Shown: positions 47,156-53,870 of the stretch, one piece after another
Position numbering within the stretch: the first letter of the stretch is position 1
Layout of the letters: each line of letters begins with the position of its first letter
NCBI RefSeq assembly: GCF_001050275.1
Contig: NZ_BBYA01000002.1
Location: 1 to 64,000 of the forward strand
Length of the DNA stretch: 64,000 nt
Direction: 5' to 3'
Source: Leptolinea tardivitalis
GTDB taxonomy: Bacteria > Chloroflexota > Anaerolineae > Anaerolineales > Anaerolineaceae
Notes under the pieces: generated by a model
Database searches by the model: none
The model's input: the letters and a program-made list of their open reading frames with translations, nothing else
Told to the model about the DNA's origin: nothing
Position numbers and translations under genes: made by a program

Positions 47156-47197
47156 AATTTAAGAGAACCGTGGGGGGAAATTTAAGATAACCGTCGG
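47156..47197. repeat. Two 19-bp direct repeats upstream of the ubiquitin-like operon
   Basis: AATTTAAGAGAACCGTGGG (47156-47174) and AATTTAAGATAACCGTCGG (47179-47197) differ at two positions and start 23 bases apart, close to two helical turns. They end 11 bases before the -35 box of the operon promoter, a usual place for an activator. Confidence 0.75.
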
Positions 47198-47207
47198 CAA
47201 AAAAATG

Positions 47208-47235
47208 TTGACTTTCTGCAGGGACGGCATAAAAT
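47208..47235 (+). promoter_or_regulatory. Promoter of the ubiquitin-like operon
   Basis: TTGACT and TAAAAT with a 16-base spacer. Predicted start is near 47242, giving an E1 leader of only about 20 bases that is occupied by the 25-bp dyad. Confidence 0.7.
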
Positions 47236-47237
47236 CT

Positions 47238-47262
47238 GGTATGAAGGTCAGACCAAAATACC
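47238..47262. promoter_or_regulatory. 25-bp dyad, probable operator for the GntR domain of the E1 protein
   Basis: Two 12-base arms, GGTATGAAGGTC and GACCAAAATACC, flank one A. Nine of twelve positions pair. The inner part GGTCAGACC fits the GT-N3-AC core of FadR-type GntR operators. The dyad covers the predicted transcription start and ends at the base before the E1 ATG, leaving no normal ribosome-binding site. Position argues for autoregulation (inference). Confidence 0.6.
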
Positions 47263-48921
47263 ATGAACATACCAAACACCCCAATTGCCCGTAAGTCGCT
47301 TGCTGAGATTATTGCCGGAAAACTGGCAGCCAGCATTCTTGAAGGACGCCTCTCACAGGGGACACAGCTTGCTCCTGAAAGAGATCTGGTCAAAGAATTT
47401 GGCGTAAGCCGATCCACGCTTCGTGAAGCATTAAAGATTCTGCTTGACAGCCGCCTGATCGAATCTCGTGTCAGTGTAGGCTGGTTCGTGTGCGAAATCA
47501 CGTCAAATAACCTGGCGAGGGCGCGCGAACTGGCATCATGGGCCCGATCTGAAACGGCGCCGGTAGTCCGGCCAGCCGGGCAGGAACCTCCCACCGGTCC
47601 ACGGCGGCTGCCTGTCAACCCTGAAAAACCATTGCAAATCCCCAATTTGAAAACTGACCGTTCCGGAACCTTTCAATTGATTTCCTGGTGGGAACGGGAA
47701 AAAGTGGAAAATGCCCGCGTTATGGTGGTAGGGGCGGGTGCGCTGGGTAATGAAGTCATCAAGAACCTGGCACTCATGGGAGTGGGACACATCTTGATCG
47801 TTGATTTTGATACGATCGAAATGGCAAACCTGAGCCGGTCTGTACTCTTCCGTGAGAGTGATGCCTCACGCAACAAGGCCGAGGTTGCGGCGGCCCGGGC
47901 GAAAGAACTCAACCCGAATATCAAAGTGCAATACATCCACGGGGATATCACCAACCAGATAGGTCTCGGCGTTTTCAGACGCATGGATGTGATCATCGGT
48001 TGTCTGGATAACCGGGAAGCCCGCCTGGCTCTCAACCGGTTCGCCTACTGGGTAGGCAAACCCTGGGTTGATGGTGCCATTCAAGAGTTATATGGATTGG
48101 TGCGGGTATTTATCCCCGGAAAGGGTGCCTGTTTTGAATGCAGTCTCACTGAACAAGCCCGCCGTGACCTGGCCGTGCGTTATTCGTGCCCCTTACTGGC
48201 ACGCGAAAATGTTTTACTGGGAAAAGTCCCCACCACACCGACCATTGCTTCCATAATAGGCGCCATGCAGGCGCAGGAGGCATTGAAAATCATTCATGGA
48301 ATGCCGGTCGAACCGGGAAAAGTGACCCATTTCAATGGCCTCACCAACGAGATGCATACCTCTGCCTATACAGCGCGTGAAGATTGTGAAAGTCATTGGA
48401 GCTATGGTGAGATCACTGAACTGCCGTTGAATGCCGGTACCACAACGCTGGCTGAATTTGCCCGGATTGTCCAGGCAGATCTGGGACCTGAGACTGTGAT
48501 CGAGTTGGACCAGGAATTGATCCTTTCGCTCACCTGTCCGCAATGTGGCACACGTGAAGAGGTTATCCGGCCAATGTCAGAGGTGGGATTCAAAGCGGCT
48601 CACTGCCCGGTTTGCGGCATTTTACGTGAAATTGAGATGACCCATACCATCACTGGCAAGGAATCATTTGCTCATCTTTCACTATCGGCGGCAGGCATAC
48701 CACCATTGCATGTTCTGCGTGCGTTCAATGCTTTGGAATACCGGTTTTATGAATTAACCGGTGATTTAAAAGACACCCTGCATTTCCGTCATTTTGAACG
48801 TCAGGATAATCGTCTGATGGCTACAGCCATCCGTGAAACCATTCGTCTGCATGATGTAACGGTTTCTGACGAGCCATCCACCAATCCGGCACATGGCCGG
48901 GTAACCCTGTGGAAGGACTGA
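47263..48921 (+). CDS. E1-like ubiquitin-activating enzyme fused to GntR DNA-binding domain
   Basis: A 552-residue fusion. Residues ~8-78 are a GntR winged helix (GRLSQGTQLAPERDLVKEFG, VSRSTLREALKILLDSRLIE). Residues ~150-350 are a ThiF/E1 adenylation domain: GAGALG (157-162) binds ATP, with DFDTIEMANLSRS and CLDNREAR after it. C290/C293 plus C375/H378 look like the structural zinc site. C309 (RYSCPLL), before TTPTIASIIGAMQAQEALK, is the best candidate thioester cysteine. A second zinc ribbon (C425, C428, C448, C451) leads to a C-terminal domain I do not recognise. Known role of the family: adenylate a ubiquitin-like C-terminus and carry it as a thioester to E2. First gene of the operon; it probably also represses the operon through its GntR part (inference). 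Confidence 0.9.
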   Translation: MNIPNTPIARKSLAEIIAGKLAASILEGRLSQGTQLAPERDLVKEFGVSRSTLREALKILLDSRLIESRVSVGWFVCEITSNNLARARELASWARSETAPVVRPAGQEPPTGPRRLPVNPEKPLQIPNLKTDRSGTFQLISWWEREKVENARVMVVGAGALGNEVIKNLALMGVGHILIVDFDTIEMANLSRSVLFRESDASRNKAEVAAARAKELNPNIKVQYIHGDITNQIGLGVFRRMDVIIGCLDNREARLALNRFAYWVGKPWVDGAIQELYGLVRVFIPGKGACFECSLTEQARRDLAVRYSCPLLARENVLLGKVPTTPTIASIIGAMQAQEALKIIHGMPVEPGKVTHFNGLTNEMHTSAYTAREDCESHWSYGEITELPLNAGTTTLAEFARIVQADLGPETVIELDQELILSLTCPQCGTREEVIRPMSEVGFKAAHCPVCGILREIEMTHTITGKESFAHLSLSAAGIPPLHVLRAFNALEYRFYELTGDLKDTLHFRHFERQDNRLMATAIRETIRLHDVTVSDEPSTNPAHGRVTLWKD

Positions 48922-48922
48922 T

Positions 48923-49951
48923 ATGGAAATGGGCATGCAATCACCGGTGATCATACAGACAACCCATCATCGATTCACATCGGTTGTTCTGAGTTTTATC
49001 TTGAGAATAGGACTGGTATTTTTCCTTACTGTGGATGCCACCGCAGGTCTGGCGTATGTTCTGATTACCTTCGAATTCCGCTGGGGTGAGTTGATTCCAT
49101 CTGTTCTGGCGGTATTTTCCGGTCTTTCTGCTGGATTTTTTTCCCGGTTGATCTTGCGAAAATGGGCACGTTTTTTTCGCTGGTTAATTTCTGTAATGGT
49201 TGTCACTGGCACGATGGCCGTGGCTGGTCTGGCGGGATTGCAGTGGTTGAAAGTTGACCTGACGCTTGTGCAATCTGCCCTGGTGCAACCAGATTTTTTT
49301 GTCCTGGTGTCGATGGGGTGCTTCACCGCCTGGCTGGTTGTCTTTGCCTGGCGGCGGAGGGTTGGGAAGAACTCTGCCATTGAAACCTCATCCACTTTTC
49401 CGGGTTCGACGTATTCCTCTGTTCAGGCTTCTTCTCCGGTGAATGACCGGTCAGTTATCACCAGACGGCCAGTTTCCCGCAGAAAACGATCTTTCTCCAT
49501 TCTTCCCGATGATTTTAGAAGGCGATATTTTCGTAAGGGTACCTGGCGCCGTTGGCGCAGAGCAGTAAGAATCCAGTGGACATCATTTTGCCGCATGGTG
49601 GAAAAAGGATTTATCCGACCGCTTCAATCCATCTTTAGACCTGGAACTTCACCCAGCCGAACTGTTCATCAAAGAGCTGCAAGACTTCAAATTCAAGTTC
49701 CTGAACAGCGGATCACACCACCGACCTCATTTCCAACCCCCTTGCCCCGCAGGCATTCCACCCGAAAAGCTCACAAGACAGTACGGTTGATTGGAAAAGA
49801 AGAAATGCGGTGTCCGTATTGCCTTCAGATTATAGAACCCCATGATCCAAACGGAATTGTAGTCTGCCCCATATGCCACACAGCGCACCATAAGGAATGT
49901 TGGGATATCACCGGTTCCTGCCAGGTACCCCACAACCATGCCATGCTTTAA
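48923..49951 (+). CDS. Membrane protein with C-terminal RING-like zinc finger, candidate E3
   Basis: A 342-residue protein. Up to four hydrophobic helices lie within residues ~20-142. A long basic, Arg/Ser/Pro-rich cytoplasmic linker (~143-290) follows, and the protein ends in a zinc finger: C297, C300, C315, C318, H322/H323, C326, C333 and H337. The core CPICHTAHHKECW matches the Prok-RING_1 (PF14446) style of binuclear treble clef. With an E2 gene next door it is a candidate membrane-tethered E3 ligase (inference). The ATG at 48923 has GGAAGGA five bases upstream, one base after the E1 stop. Confidence 0.8.
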   Translation: MEMGMQSPVIIQTTHHRFTSVVLSFILRIGLVFFLTVDATAGLAYVLITFEFRWGELIPSVLAVFSGLSAGFFSRLILRKWARFFRWLISVMVVTGTMAVAGLAGLQWLKVDLTLVQSALVQPDFFVLVSMGCFTAWLVVFAWRRRVGKNSAIETSSTFPGSTYSSVQASSPVNDRSVITRRPVSRRKRSFSILPDDFRRRYFRKGTWRRWRRAVRIQWTSFCRMVEKGFIRPLQSIFRPGTSPSRTVHQRAARLQIQVPEQRITPPTSFPTPLPRRHSTRKAHKTVRLIGKEEMRCPYCLQIIEPHDPNGIVVCPICHTAHHKECWDITGSCQVPHNHAML

Positions 49952-49972
49952 CCCTGTTTTTGGAGGATTTTT

Positions 49973-50824
49973 ATGTCTGACCGTTCCATCACGATCGTAT
50001 TGCCAAATGGCGGAGCCCGCCGGGCGGATATCCCTTCAGATGTTGCTGTAGGAGATATCCTGACTGAACTGACATCTCTGTTGCAGCTTCCCACCATCGG
50101 CCCAGATGGCCGACCTATGGGATATCGGTTGGATAGCAAAGCCCTTGGTCGTGAATTATTGGAAACCGAAACGCTCGCGCAGGCGAATGTTCCGGATGGT
50201 GACAGGCTGATCCTCACAGCCGATATCACCGCGGGTGCCGGTTCGCTTGATCAGAGCCCCCGGATGCGTCGTCTGCGCGCAGACCATGAACTCATTCAGG
50301 AATTAAATGCCCGGAGCGATCTGATCTCAGTGGAAGCAAAATCAGCTTTCCCCGGAATGCCGCCGGAAAGGTACATTGTCACATTCAAATGCAAGTCTAT
50401 TACAGGTATTGATGCGAAAGGTAATCCGAAGATCGGCGAACATCATCAGGTCGAAATCTACCTGCATGCACAGTATCCACAGCGCTGGCCGGGCATGAAT
50501 TGGTTGACTCCTATCTGGCATCCAAATATTAATCACCTGAATGGCAGTGTTTGTATTGATGCCGCCTGGTGGGCGGCCAGCCGTTCACTGGACCGGCTGG
50601 TGATCATGCTGGGTGAAATGTTGCAGTACAAAAATTTTCATGATGATCCCACCAAGCCGCCATTCCCCTGGGATGCAGAAGCGGCCAAATGGTGCAGAGC
50701 ATACCGCACCGTTCATCAGGGCGTCTTTCCGCTGGATAAACGGGAATTGCTTCGGCCTGAGAGGGTGAAACTCAAATCCATTGAACCGGCTCCCCGGCCA
50801 AAAGTGAAGCTTAAATTGAAATAA
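49973..50824 (+). CDS. E2-like ubiquitin-conjugating enzyme with N-terminal ubiquitin-like domain
   Basis: A 283-residue fusion. Residues 1-88 are a YukD/EsaB-like beta-grasp domain, about 68% identical by eye to the free protein encoded next. Residues ~95-255 are a UBC fold: HHQVEIYLHAQYP, then IWHPNINHLNGSVCID with the HPN motif (183-185) and catalytic Cys194, and ASRSLDRLVIMLGEMLQ, the usual helix after the active site. This keeps the eukaryotic E2 pattern unusually well. The basic tail RPKVKLKLK ends the protein. GGAGG precedes the ATG by six bases. It should accept the ubiquitin-like protein from E1 on Cys194. Confidence 0.92.
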   Translation: MSDRSITIVLPNGGARRADIPSDVAVGDILTELTSLLQLPTIGPDGRPMGYRLDSKALGRELLETETLAQANVPDGDRLILTADITAGAGSLDQSPRMRRLRADHELIQELNARSDLISVEAKSAFPGMPPERYIVTFKCKSITGIDAKGNPKIGEHHQVEIYLHAQYPQRWPGMNWLTPIWHPNINHLNGSVCIDAAWWAASRSLDRLVIMLGEMLQYKNFHDDPTKPPFPWDAEAAKWCRAYRTVHQGVFPLDKRELLRPERVKLKSIEPAPRPKVKLKLK

Positions 50825-50831
50825 CCGACAT

Positions 50832-50845
50832 CAAGGTGCACCTTG
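50832..50845. promoter_or_regulatory. Perfect 14-bp palindrome between E2 and Ubl genes
   Basis: CAAGGTGCACCTTG reads the same on both strands. As RNA it gives a weak five-pair hairpin followed by TTTAGG. It could be a protein-binding site or a minor pause/processing element; no strong evidence for either. Confidence 0.4.
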
Positions 50846-50879
50846 TTTAGGAACTCAATGAAACCAAATGGAGGTAACA

Positions 50880-51146
50880 ATGTCTGACAAAAATGTAACG
50901 TTTGTTTTGCCCTCAGGAGGCAGCCGAACCGCAGAAGTGCCCGATGACGTGGCTGTATCTGACCTTATTCCTGAACTGGCAACATCGCTTCAACTGCCTA
51001 CAACTGGTCCGGATGGTCGTCCTATCAGCTACCGGTTGGATAGCAAAGCATTGGGCCGCGAACTGCAGGAGAGTGAAACTCTGGCTGCAGCCGGTGTACC
51101 GTCAGATGACCGTTTGATGGTCACAGCCGATATTACGGCGGGGTAA
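50880..51146 (+). CDS. Free ubiquitin-like modifier (YukD/EsaB-like beta-grasp)
   Basis: An 88-residue beta-grasp protein (MSDKNVTFVLPSGGSRTAEV ... VTADITAG). It ends in Ala-Gly with no extension, so the C-terminal Gly needed for adenylation by E1 is already exposed and no processing protease is required for maturation. The fold pattern (LPTTGPDGRP, GRELQESETLAAAGV) matches YukD/EsaB-type ubiquitin-like proteins known from type VII secretion, but no EssC ATPase or WXG100 gene is here. Start 50880 has GGAGG five bases upstream and excludes an ATG four codons earlier. It is a tandem duplicate of the domain fused to E2. Confidence 0.9.
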   Translation: MSDKNVTFVLPSGGSRTAEVPDDVAVSDLIPELATSLQLPTTGPDGRPISYRLDSKALGRELQESETLAAAGVPSDDRLMVTADITAG

Positions 51147-51155
51147 TCGTTCCTG

Positions 51156-51190
51156 GCCAGGCGGCGTTCTGGTGGTCAGAGCCGCCTGGC
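51156..51190 (+). promoter_or_regulatory. Stable RNA hairpin between Ubl and JAB genes
   Basis: A perfect 10-bp GC-rich stem, GCCAGGCGGC / GCCGCCTGGC, with a 15-base loop, nine bases after the ubiquitin-like stop codon. There is no T-run, so it is not a simple terminator. Such intercistronic stems often protect the upstream message, which would raise modifier levels relative to the JAB peptidase (inference). Confidence 0.65.
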
Positions 51191-51211
51191 AATACATCCA
51201 ACGAGGTTCCT

Positions 51212-51856
51212 GTGAATCTGACATCACGAATTCGAATCGGTACAGATAATGGGTTGAAATTTCGGCATAACCGGGCGCCGTTTCACCGAGCACAATACTG
51301 GCTGCCACAGGTACGAGATGATCATGCCATTCCGGCAGTTCAGATCTTCCTGACCCAGCATGCCTTTATCCGGATATGCGCTCATGCCGGTTCGGATCTG
51401 CAAAATGAAGTGGGCGGATGGCTGGCCGGGAAGGCGTATCTGGATAAAGAAACCGGCAAACCATTCATAGTAATCAGTGTCGCATTACCAGCGGAATTCA
51501 CTGTGCAGGGAAGTGCATCGCTCACCTTTACGCAGGAAAGTCAGGTAAAGCTGCATGCCATTTTAAATGAAGATTATCCAGATTTAATGCTGCTGGGATG
51601 GTTTCACACACATCCACGTATGGGAGTTTTCTTTTCAGAATGGGACCGATGGCTGCATGAAAATTTTTTCCCAGAACCGTGGCAGGTTGGACTGGTTATT
51701 GAACCATATAGCGCGGCGGGCGGCTTCTTCCAGAAACAGGAAGATGGCTCATTGAATACTCGGTGTTATTTTGGTTTCCATGAACTCTTCCAACGGCGCA
51801 GGCGGTCTATTGTGCACTGGCGGAATCTCATTCCGGCAGAAAACGAGATGAACTGA
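51212..51856 (+). CDS. JAB/JAMM metallopeptidase, probable deconjugase
   Basis: A 214-residue Prok-JAB protein. The zinc site is complete: E66 in NEVGGWLAG, H132 and H134 in GWFHTHPRMG, S142 and D145 in FFSEWD (the HxHx7Sx2D motif). In ubiquitin-type operons this family removes the modifier from targets or trims precursors. The free modifier here needs no trimming, so deconjugation is the likelier job, or cleavage of Ubl-E2 after AG (inference). The GTG start at 51212 follows GAGGT. Confidence 0.9.
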   Translation: MNLTSRIRIGTDNGLKFRHNRAPFHRAQYWLPQVRDDHAIPAVQIFLTQHAFIRICAHAGSDLQNEVGGWLAGKAYLDKETGKPFIVISVALPAEFTVQGSASLTFTQESQVKLHAILNEDYPDLMLLGWFHTHPRMGVFFSEWDRWLHENFFPEPWQVGLVIEPYSAAGGFFQKQEDGSLNTRCYFGFHELFQRRRRSIVHWRNLIPAENEMN

Positions 51857-51868
51857 AACGAGGCAACT

Positions 51869-52726
51869 ATGAGCCGATTTTTGAAAATATATTATTATGC
51901 GGTGCTGGGCGGGATTGGTGGTCTATTCGCCTGGCAGGTCAGCAATTTGACTGGACTATCGTTCACGTCTAATCTTTACTTTAATGCCCTGGTCGTGGGG
52001 GGATTCATCGGTTTTTTGATCGGTTTTATGATCGGTGCCGTGGAAGGAATCTCCGCCCGAAATTTGGAAAAGGCATTGACATCTGGTGCCATTATCGGCA
52101 GTCTGGGTCTGGTTGGCGGTGCACTTGGACTTCCGATTGCAGAAGGTTTTTTTCAAGCGATAGGCGGATTCGCTTGGGCTCGACCGCTGGGTTGGGGATT
52201 ATTTGGGCTTTTGACCGGAACAGCCGCTGCTTATAAAGGCGGCGCCCAAATCTGGAAGGGAGCCGTTGGTGGTTTTGTGGGTGGAATCCTGGGAGGATTA
52301 TTACTCGAATTTGCCCGCGGCAGCCTGGCTGATCCGCTGCTGGGTAAAGCAGCTGGTCTTGTGATGATGGGTATGGCGGTGGGAGGTTGTATCGCCTTAA
52401 TTGTCTATACATTGTCAAAAGCCTGGTTTGAGGTAAAAACCGGCAAGTTGAAAGGAACAGAGTTCATCCTCGATAAATTCCTTCAACCCAATGGCCCATC
52501 TGCCATCATCGGGAGCAGTTCACTGAAAGCGGATATTGCCCTTCCTGACCCAGATATTGCCCCCCAACATGCCATGATGCAGGGTGGAGGCAATTATTTC
52601 AACCTCAAAGATATGAGCATGACCGGTACGTTTGTGAATAACAAGCGTATTGAACAAGCCCGGTTATCCAATCTTCAGGTTGTTCGAGTGGGGAACACCG
52701 AATTGGTGTACCACGAGAAGAGGTAG
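51869..52726 (+). CDS. Multi-pass membrane protein with divergent FHA domain
   Basis: A 285-residue protein. Residues ~8-182 contain five to six Gly-rich hydrophobic helices (GGIGGLF, GGFIGFLIGFMIG, GGFVGGILGG). Residues ~195-285 form an FHA-like domain ending TGTFVNNKRIEQARLSN. Canonical phosphothreonine contacts are changed: GR is GS (215-216) and SxxH is APQH (231-234). It may therefore bind its partner without phosphorylation (inference). A GAGG site precedes the ATG. It lies in the operon between the JAB and VWA genes. Confidence 0.82.
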   Translation: MSRFLKIYYYAVLGGIGGLFAWQVSNLTGLSFTSNLYFNALVVGGFIGFLIGFMIGAVEGISARNLEKALTSGAIIGSLGLVGGALGLPIAEGFFQAIGGFAWARPLGWGLFGLLTGTAAAYKGGAQIWKGAVGGFVGGILGGLLLEFARGSLADPLLGKAAGLVMMGMAVGGCIALIVYTLSKAWFEVKTGKLKGTEFILDKFLQPNGPSAIIGSSSLKADIALPDPDIAPQHAMMQGGGNYFNLKDMSMTGTFVNNKRIEQARLSNLQVVRVGNTELVYHEKR

Positions 52727-52733
52727 CTCGATT

Positions 52734-53870
52734 ATGAATACAACACGAAAACTTTACGTTTCCACTACTCTGTTGTTGATAGCCGGTTTGTTAATGTCAT
52801 TTCTGCCTGCTTCAACTGTTTTGCCGCAAAGTGATGACCTGACGATCAAGATTACTCAGGTGGATAATTCCAAATTCCCTCAAGTGACGTTATATGTCTC
52901 CGTTCTGAATAGAAAGGGTGAGCCTGTTGCTATAAACCCGGCTGACCTGGTCATCCGCGAAAATGGGAAAGTGATACCGGCCAGTAATGTCAAAGGAGCA
53001 GGCCAGGTAGGTCCATTAACCACATTGCTGGTGATGGATATTTCCGGCAGTATGAACAAAGGCGGCAAGATAGAATCAGCCAAAGCAGTAGCACGTGAAT
53101 ATGTTGCCCAGATGCGTGAAGGTGATTCTGCCGGAGTCATTCTATTCAACACGCAGGTGCGTACATTACAGATCATCAAAAGCGACCGCGGTCAGTTATC
53201 AAAAGCCCTCAATGAAATATCTGCTGGCGGTGATACTGCCATGTACGATGCGTTAATTACGGCCGTGAATCAATTGAACGGAATCACCGGGCGAAAAGCG
53301 ATTCTCGTCTATACCGATGGATTGGATAACCGAAGTAAATCTACAGCCGATGATGTCATCTCAGCCATCGGAACAGGCGGATTAACCATTTCGACCGTTG
53401 GTTTCGGGGATGTGAATCAGGGGTTGGGTTCCCAGGAAGCACTGGACGAAGCTGCCTTGAAGAAACTTGCCAGTAAATCCGGTGGTTTGTATGGTTATGC
53501 GGCAAATCGAGATGAGTTAAGCGCGTTGTATGCCTCATTTGGCGCATCCATGCGAAGTGAGTACGCACTTACATACACATCGCCATATAGTCTCCGTAAT
53601 GGAATCAACCGGTCGTTATCTGTTACGCTTGAATCACCTCTGGGAGGATTGTCACGGACTGGTGCATCTGCTACATATAATCCTGGAGGATTGATCCCGG
53701 AAGTACCGGTGAGCGGTTCCTGGTCAATTTTCTTTGGATTATTGCTATTTCTGGGAATACTCGCTGCCGCCCCCATGATTGTCCCAAGAATTCAGACGAA
53801 AATCCAGAAACCAAAACCGGCTGTGAAATTGAAAGAACCGAAAAAAGTCGCCATAAAATTAAAGGATTGA
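52734..53870 (+). CDS. Membrane-anchored von Willebrand A protein
   Basis: A 378-residue exported protein: an N-terminal signal/anchor (residues ~8-28), a beta domain (~35-90), a VWA domain (~95-290) with MIDAS motif DISGS (102-106) and GDTAMYDAL and YTDGLDN completing the metal site, then a transmembrane helix (~330-350) and a Lys-rich cytoplasmic tail (KPAVKLKEPKKVAIKLKD). VWA domains bind partner proteins through a metal ion. The tail shares VKLK-type repeats with the E2 tail. The ATG at 52734 starts the signal peptide; the longer frame from 52650 overlaps the FHA gene. Last gene of the operon. Confidence 0.88.
   Translation: MNTTRKLYVSTTLLLIAGLLMSFLPASTVLPQSDDLTIKITQVDNSKFPQVTLYVSVLNRKGEPVAINPADLVIRENGKVIPASNVKGAGQVGPLTTLLVMDISGSMNKGGKIESAKAVAREYVAQMREGDSAGVILFNTQVRTLQIIKSDRGQLSKALNEISAGGDTAMYDALITAVNQLNGITGRKAILVYTDGLDNRSKSTADDVISAIGTGGLTISTVGFGDVNQGLGSQEALDEAALKKLASKSGGLYGYAANRDELSALYASFGASMRSEYALTYTSPYSLRNGINRSLSVTLESPLGGLSRTGASATYNPGGLIPEVPVSGSWSIFFGLLLFLGILAAAPMIVPRIQTKIQKPKPAVKLKEPKKVAIKLKD

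Follow-up and report, generated by a model that had tools for sequence, protein, structure and literature searches.

A conserved seven-gene operon of Chloroflexota that probably encodes a membrane-associated ubiquitin-like conjugation system controlled by its own E1

The seven-gene locus and its distribution

The stretch of DNA that was analyzed, referred to below as the window, comprises 64,000 nucleotides of Leptolinea tardivitalis (assembly GCF_001050275.1, contig NZ_BBYA01000002.1, positions 1 to 64,000 of the forward strand). Positions 47263 to 53870 are occupied by seven tightly packed plus-strand genes, which code, in this order, for a GntR-ThiF protein of the ubiquitin-activating (E1) type, a RING protein, a YukD-like ubiquitin-like (Ubl) domain fused to a conjugating enzyme (E2), a free Ubl, a JAB peptidase, an FHA protein, and a VWA protein (Table 1). 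A preliminary description, made from the letters of the sequence, had placed a close-set, same-strand group of genes for a ubiquitin-type pathway at these positions; all seven open reading frames (ORFs) were found there, and every one of the seven proteins had Pfam matches above the curated cutoffs.

The gene neighborhood was surveyed across Chloroflexota, and the residue and gene-order counts given below rest on the best 80 of 121 Ubl-E2 relatives recovered in a contig scan (the named set). All 80 contigs belong to Chloroflexota, mostly to Anaerolineae. The complete set of genes was present in order at 67 of the 80 loci, six of which had two JAB genes. Eleven of the remaining 13 loci end at a contig edge, one (L162) has all seven genes with one ORF opened too early, and at one (L113) the free Ubl was not detected. 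A second set of 40 loci, on contigs that partly overlap the named set, had the identical order wherever the contig was long enough, with two exceptions (L074 and L097) of the same two kinds. The seven-gene set is a conserved unit and not a chance arrangement. Operons with two consecutive JAB genes were observed at L169, L172, L175, L180, L181, and L182.

Of 251 genomes of the order, 54 contained a relative of the Ubl-E2 protein, and 52 of these 54 had a second match, usually the free Ubl. Of the two that did not, G467 has a contig that stops just past the Ubl-E2 gene, and G517 has a distant, simpler variant. A phylum-wide scan gave matches in 13 of 390 genomes, with only distant or simpler forms in G144, G591, G220, and G552 and an unfused E2 in G011.

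Table 1. Positions of the operon genes, of the upstream elements, and of the parts of E1 (aa, amino acid positions in the protein)
Feature	Position	Strand	Remarks
Promoter-like boxes	47208..47235	+	-35 TTGACT, -10 TAAAAT, spacer 16; identified by eye immediately before the operator
Predicted operator	47237..47263	.	27-bp palindrome, GntR/FadR type; overlaps E1 start codon
E1	47263..48921	+	GntR winged helix and ThiF; Pfam, alignment, model
GntR winged helix of E1	aa 14-76
ThiF adenylation domain of E1	aa 137-375		contains Cys309; C-terminal domain and tail follow
Likely zinc ligands of E1	C290/C293/C375/H378
Zinc ribbon of E1	C425/C428/C448/C451		in C-terminal domain
Membrane Prok-RING_1 protein, candidate E3	48923..49951	+	Pfam, alignment, hydropathy
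Ubl-E2	49973..50824	+	YukD-like Ubl fused to UBC E2; basic tail motif; Pfam, alignment, model
Free YukD-like Ubl	50868..51146	+	ends TAG (Gly last); likely true start 50880
JAB/JAMM peptidase	51212..51856	+	Pfam, alignment
Membrane FHA protein	51869..52726	+	Pfam, alignment, hydropathy
VWA protein	about 52734..53870	+	Pfam, alignment, hydropathy

Conserved residues, predicted folds, and a shared tail

Pfam recognized ThiF (3.3e-59) and GntR (7.2e-15) domains in E1, with a single ThiF stretch. Cys309, the candidate catalytic cysteine, was invariant in 73/73 ungapped rows of the alignment (78 rows), and the GxGALG motif and both groups of putative zinc ligands were likewise invariant in the ungapped rows. 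The E1 model, which had a predicted local distance difference test (pLDDT) score of 78, aligned with MoeB and ThiF (Z about 30), and ranges of the model up to residue 500 aligned with the E1 enzymes for SUMO, ISG15, and ubiquitin (Z 25 to 28). These alignment ranges suggest that the C-terminal domain is an E2-docking domain resembling the ubiquitin-fold domain, with a zinc-ribbon insert.

The third gene joins a YukD domain (4.6e-11) and a UQ_con domain (3.1e-10) within one protein. The E2 residues H183, P184, N185, and C194 were invariant in 81/81 rows, and T86-A87-G88 of the embedded Ubl was also present in all 81, though the linker that follows it varies. By sequence profile, the closest protein to the E2 in the PDB was eukaryotic E2-25K/UBE2K (E value, 1.8e-9). 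In a model built with 49 sequences, an alpha/beta domain comes after a beta-grasp-like one; the order of helices and strands in the alpha/beta domain, judged by eye, was that expected for the UBC fold. In a Foldseek search with this model the N-terminal domain matched ubiquitins, including that of Caldiarchaeum; because this first domain fills the list with ubiquitins, the search hardly tests the E2 part. Among the folds expected from the preliminary description, the beta-grasp-like and E1 folds were recovered, and the UBC fold was seen by eye and hardly tested by Foldseek.

The free Ubl is a single YukD domain (1.4e-10) of about 88 amino acids; homologs favor the later start codon at 50880, which gives a length of 88. 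Its C-terminal glycine was conserved in 76/76 ungapped rows, and 74 of 77 proteins end exactly there; of the other three, two extend 1 to 2 residues past the glycine and one is cut by a contig end. The JAB protein (Prok-JAB, 2.4e-9) has a complete set of JAMM residues (E66, H132, H134, S142, and D145), which were invariant in 76/76 ungapped rows (77 rows).

The three other proteins are predicted, from hydropathy, to lie in the membrane, with four (RING), four (FHA), and two (VWA) transmembrane segments. The RING protein (Prok-RING_1, 6.2e-10) retained all eight ligands (C297, C300, C315, C318, H323, C326, C333, and H337) in 79/79 rows. At L211 to L213, which belong to another Chloroflexota family, several Prok-RING_1 proteins per genome were observed, and no relatives of the seven proteins were found there. 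The VWA protein (VWA_2, 1.1e-15) consists of an N-terminal signal or anchor, the VWA domain, a C-terminal transmembrane segment, and a basic tail; the metal ion-dependent adhesion site (MIDAS) residues D102, S106, T168, and D195 were invariant in the ungapped rows, and S104 was missing from a single one of them. In the FHA protein (FHA, 3.2e-10), the arginine of the GR motif, a usual feature of phosphothreonine-binding FHA domains, was replaced by serine in 74/74 ungapped rows (76 rows), so that a role as phosphothreonine reader is unsupported.

These results bear out what had been proposed from the single sequence: an E1 with a GAGALG motif, the candidate Cys309, and a GntR domain; an E2 with HPN at 183 to 185, Cys194, and its own Ubl; a glycine-ended, YukD-like modifier; a complete JAMM peptidase; a RING-like candidate E3; and membrane location of the RING, FHA, and VWA proteins. 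Dozens of relatives agree with that proposal in domain content, catalytic residues, and predicted membrane location. The altered FHA site, the operator at the E1 start, the tail motif described next, and the apparent vertical inheritance were additional to that description.

E1, Ubl-E2, and the VWA protein often end with a short peptide of alternating basic and hydrophobic residues, such as KPRIRLK. Within the last nine residues the pattern occurred in 37/77 E1, 62/80 Ubl-E2, and 50/67 VWA proteins, whereas it occurred in 0/78 RING, 0/75 Ubl, 1/75 JAB, and 0/72 FHA proteins; shuffled E1, Ubl-E2, and VWA tails gave at most 3 matches, and another count agreed with this contrast. In the last 40 residues of the FHA protein the pattern was found in 30/72, above shuffles, and we take these matches to be a strand of the FHA domain. 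The VWA tail is predicted to lie inside the cell. The simplest reading is that the tails of E1, E2, and VWA dock onto a common partner at the membrane. Docking of the tail onto the fused Ubl was unsupported; the tail is disordered in the Ubl-E2 model.

A palindrome at the start of the E1 gene

Near the E1 start lies a palindromic element with the consensus TGGTATnnTGGTCnGACCAnnATACCA, represented in the window by the nested palindrome TGGTATGAAGGTCAGACCAAAATACCA. The consensus was found at all 31 loci of a first set that included the window, with scores of 15 to 22 of 22. The best score among 685 control windows was 16, so that the lowest operator scores (15 and 16) fall inside the control range, with the core TGGTCTGACCA still exact there. 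In the named set the operator was located at the E1 start in 64 of 67 loci, and 58 of the 67 had a perfect GGTCnGAC core; the controls for this set did not exclude the operator itself, and some reached 20. In the genome from which the window comes, the site is the only zero-mismatch match to the pattern.

An exact 19-base form, TGGTCnGACCAnnATACCA, was present in 28 of the 251 genomes of the order, compared to none for the reversed control. All 28 sites were inspected; each was located 22 to 51 bases before an E1 start, and no genome had the form at a second place. Twenty-seven of the 28 genomes are among the 54 with Ubl-E2 (the association test takes no account of genome relatedness), and in the 28th (G464) the site precedes an E1 gene cut by the contig end. 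Other carriers have diverged operator forms or cut contigs. At loci whose E1 has no GntR part (L206, L207, L209, and L219), operator scores were 11 to 13 of 22, equal to background; L208, whose E1 has the GntR part, scored 18.

A FadR-subfamily box, TKGT-3 nt-ACMA, with adjacent weaker half-sites is described in one report (PMC4494728). The operator fits this box, with weaker outer half-sites. The best PDB match of the E1 winged helix by profile was PdhR (2.2e-9), and those residues of the helix-turn-helix and wing that E1 has in common with PdhR were conserved among E1 relatives. No match confined to the winged helix appeared in the VIA listing for the E1 model, in which this domain was barely probed. 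At 69 of 77 named loci the E1 match starts within the GntR part, and the other eight E1 genes are cut by a contig start. The helical effector-binding C-terminal domain of the FadR subfamily is not present in E1, where ThiF occupies that position. Because a dedicated GntR-type palindrome sits at the E1 start across loci, E1 is probably a repressor of its own operon that acts through predicted binding to this operator.

Promoter-like boxes similar to those of the window were seen by eye at the same place in many of the 31 first-set loci. Just before the promoter in the window, at 47156 to 47194, there is a direct repeat of two copies of TTTAAGAnAACCGT, which by eye is partly kept in the nearest relative (L105). 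A second recurrent element lies upstream of E1 at about -80 to -105, before the -35 box, in other loci, for example L108, L113, L140, and L144. Some loci have it as a palindromic AGTACTTAAGTACT, others as AGTACC/T..CCTA, and it is possibly the site of a second regulator. AGTAC[CT] within 230 bases upstream was counted, with no shuffle control, in 34 of 67 loci, and was not seen before E1 in the window.

Proposed mechanism, alternatives, and related systems

Taken together, the sequences make it quite likely that the operon encodes a complete, reversible ubiquitin-like conjugation system at the cytoplasmic membrane that is controlled by its own E1. E1 would adenylate the free Ubl at the C-terminal glycine, which is already exposed, load the modifier onto its own Cys309, and transfer it to the E2 cysteine, Cys194. 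Charged E2 (E2~Ubl) would be brought to membrane targets by the membrane RING protein, and the JAMM enzyme would strip the tag. The VWA protein, with its MIDAS outside, and the FHA membrane protein may act as receptor or scaffold. Repression of the operon would come about through binding of the E1 winged helix to the palindrome that overlaps the E1 start codon, the E1 module filling the place of the small-molecule sensor domain of normal GntR regulators. The best-supported of these predicted steps are conjugation of Ubl by E1 and E2, its removal by JAMM, and autorepression by E1; we infer, in addition, that the RING protein serves as E3, that VWA and FHA serve as receptor and scaffold, and that Ubl-adenylate occupancy is the signal.

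The genome of the window (99% complete, 15 contigs) had no WXG100 match and no YukD match outside the operon, and the search for the proteasome and HslV, which covered this genome, gave no match. Because WXG100, proteasome, and HslV matches are missing from it, the system is unlikely to serve type VII secretion or proteasomal destruction; its likely purpose is to mark membrane or envelope proteins with a regulatory tag.

More tentatively, and at a little short of an even chance, E1 may be enzyme and repressor in one and sense how much of its modifier is available, with E1, E2, and VWA gathered at the membrane by their shared tail and a signal from outside leading to Ubl tagging. A dimer of the ThiF-type E1 would then be bound to a single dedicated operator in the genome; occupancy by Ubl/ATP or Ubl-adenylate, or delivery to E2, would decide transcription of the operon in a loop like that of BirA. 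The biotin ligase-repressor BirA is an adenylating enzyme that represses the genes of its own pathway through a winged helix. BirA belongs to another enzyme family, and in the operon described here it is a protein modifier that would be adenylated.

Several observations weigh against the proposed E1-controlled conjugation system. The operator was absent from its usual place at L169, L173, and L177 (3 of 67 loci), and the exact 19-base form is missing in roughly half of the carriers and also in the genome of the window, where the site deviates from it at a single base. When two mismatches were allowed, the genome of the window had one further place, and the reversed pattern gave as many matches (3) as the real one (3). 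Confidence in the Ubl-E2 model is moderate (pLDDT, 75; predicted template modeling score, 0.57), with a poor active-site loop and tail, and support for the UBC fold comes mainly from sequence. Prok-RING_1 proteins also occur at Chloroflexota loci with no detected E1 or E2 relative (L211 to L218), one of which (L218) has only a distant VWA. The tail pattern was drawn from the same sequences in which it was counted, and for that reason the tail argument rests more on the contrast between proteins than on the count. In addition, YukD itself is reported not to be covalently conjugated (PMC1779556).

The last point, together with the YukD family of the Ubl and the membrane FHA and VWA partners, would suit a scaffold that does not conjugate, in which YukD domains are parts of a type VII-like secretion or envelope assembly and the E1 and E2 homologs only bind them. 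However, such a scaffold needs none of the conserved HPN, Cys194, Cys309, JAMM, and terminal glycine residues, and the genome gave no WXG100 match and no YukD match outside the operon, so that this explanation seems very improbable. It is also very unlikely, although slightly less so, that the winged helix is a protein-interaction domain only and that the palindrome belongs to another GntR regulator. Winged helices make protein contacts in some E1/E3 systems, but the residues shared with PdhR are conserved in this one, exact sites in the order occur only before E1, and loci whose E1 lacks the GntR part have no site above background. A variant that is compatible with the proposed conjugation system has the Ubl-E2 protein as a precursor, which JAMM would cut after G88 to give a second modifier and a free E2. 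The constancy of T86-A87-G88 before a variable linker, the identical TAG end of the free Ubl, and the unfused E2 in the operon at L208 favor it; these residues may instead be kept for docking of E1 or E2, and we regard the precursor as possible but doubtful.

Known bacterial E1/E2/Ubl/JAB operons such as Bil are defense systems, and PADLOC profiles for E1-E2 and JAB cover stretches of the E1 and JAB proteins here. A defense module of the Bil or Bub type, which would attach Ubl to phage proteins, is nevertheless unlikely. The PADLOC matches span only the shared adenylation and JAB cores, and the RING, Ubl-E2, Ubl, FHA, and VWA proteins had none. A quick tree of joined E1 and Ubl-E2 sequences (41 rows, seven family labels) required 7 changes of family label (minimum, 6; shuffled mean, 26.7); five of the seven families each formed one side of a branch, and the window's family (f1) and f84 were split. 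Because the tree follows the family labels, the operon looks to have been inherited mostly vertically, unlike a mobile defense island, and its patchy occurrence would be explained by losses. Among up to four ORFs per side, which were named by eye, the upstream flanks contained genes resembling those for ribosomal proteins L1, L10, L11, and L7/L12 at up to 16 loci (for example, loci L119, L133, and L146), and a LexA-like gene lay downstream at 19 loci. These genes look like housekeeping genes; none was common to all loci within the ORFs surveyed. Phage records gave no match, and plasmid records gave one weak match, to a Crinalium E2 with 30% identity.

Two sister loci (L206 and L207) have an E1 without GntR, a free Ubl ending in VTAG, an unfused E2, two JAB proteins, and RING-type proteins. 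L208, from a genome with 8% contamination, combines the seven-gene order and a GntR-E1 with an E2 that is not fused. Because these simpler loci exist, the Ubl-E2 fusion, the GntR part, FHA, and VWA are probably later additions, with the free Ubl as the constant modifier.

The general kind of operon, with E1, E2, Ubl, JAB, and RING in bacteria, is already known; what seems to be new is the GntR-type operator at the E1 start and the tail motif common to E1, E2, and VWA. In 2011, Burroughs, Iyer, and Aravind (Mol BioSyst) reportedly proposed conjugation of YukD-like Ubls, and prokaryotic RING E3s, with E1, E2, and JAB. L206 and L207 resemble this simpler YukD/E2/E1/JAB/RING form. Compared to those reported operons, the one described here appears to add a GntR domain on E1 with an operator, a Ubl on the E2, FHA and VWA membrane proteins, and the tail common to E1, E2, and VWA. 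PdhR/FadR-type GntR regulators likewise combine a winged helix with a TGGTnnnACCA operator; they have an effector domain where the E1 enzyme is found here. A GntR-E1 with an operator, the common tail, the Ubl-E2 fusion, the FHA/VWA pair, and the seven-gene set were not found in a literature search of the top-ranked titles and abstracts of open-license papers, which is weak evidence of absence.

A 2006 paper described bacterial operons that combine genes for E1, E2, Ubl, and JAB (PMC1779556), and bacterial E2 and E3 homologs and some complete operons are mentioned elsewhere (PMC5654768). "Candidatus Caldiarchaeum subterraneum" similarly has an operon with ubiquitin, E1, E2, and a small RING protein, adjoined by a JAMM protein (Rpn11); its cascade was reconstituted, and its E2 was auto-modified on a C-terminal lysine (PMC5654768). 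The Caldiarchaeum modifier is a pro-ubiquitin that needs C-terminal processing (PMC5654768), whereas the modifier here is of YukD type and ends in glycine; also unlike Caldiarchaeum, E1 here has a GntR domain and the RING is a predicted membrane protein. The Bil operon (BilABCD) also unites E1, E2, Ubl, and JAB. Its distinguishing features are a tandem of Ubl domains in BilA, paired adenylation domains together with a Cys domain in BilD, and a CEHH motif in BilB (PMC11354881), in contrast to the one ThiF module, HPN E2, single-domain YukD, and additional RING, FHA, and VWA proteins found here. The difference from Bil asserted in the preliminary description held in the features tested (E1, E2 motif, and Ubl), though the operon also has sister loci of its own kind with a simpler makeup (L206 and L207).

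Most experimentally studied bacterial ubiquitin-like systems are defense modules. The present operon has the appearance of a physiological system passed down within part of a large bacterial order. It combines a eukaryote-like E2, a RING protein predicted to lie in the membrane, and a control circuit that would be self-contained, and no proteasome was found in the genome of the window. It offers a way to study ubiquitin-like tagging in bacteria outside virus defense and bears on the role of ubiquitin-like conjugation before eukaryotes. Since complete genomes carry the operon, the targets and the E1-DNA switch are directly testable; these genomes are those of Pelolinea submarina MO-CFX1 and Leptolinea sp. 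HRD-7, the latter having the nearest Ubl-E2 relative in the named set (91% identity).

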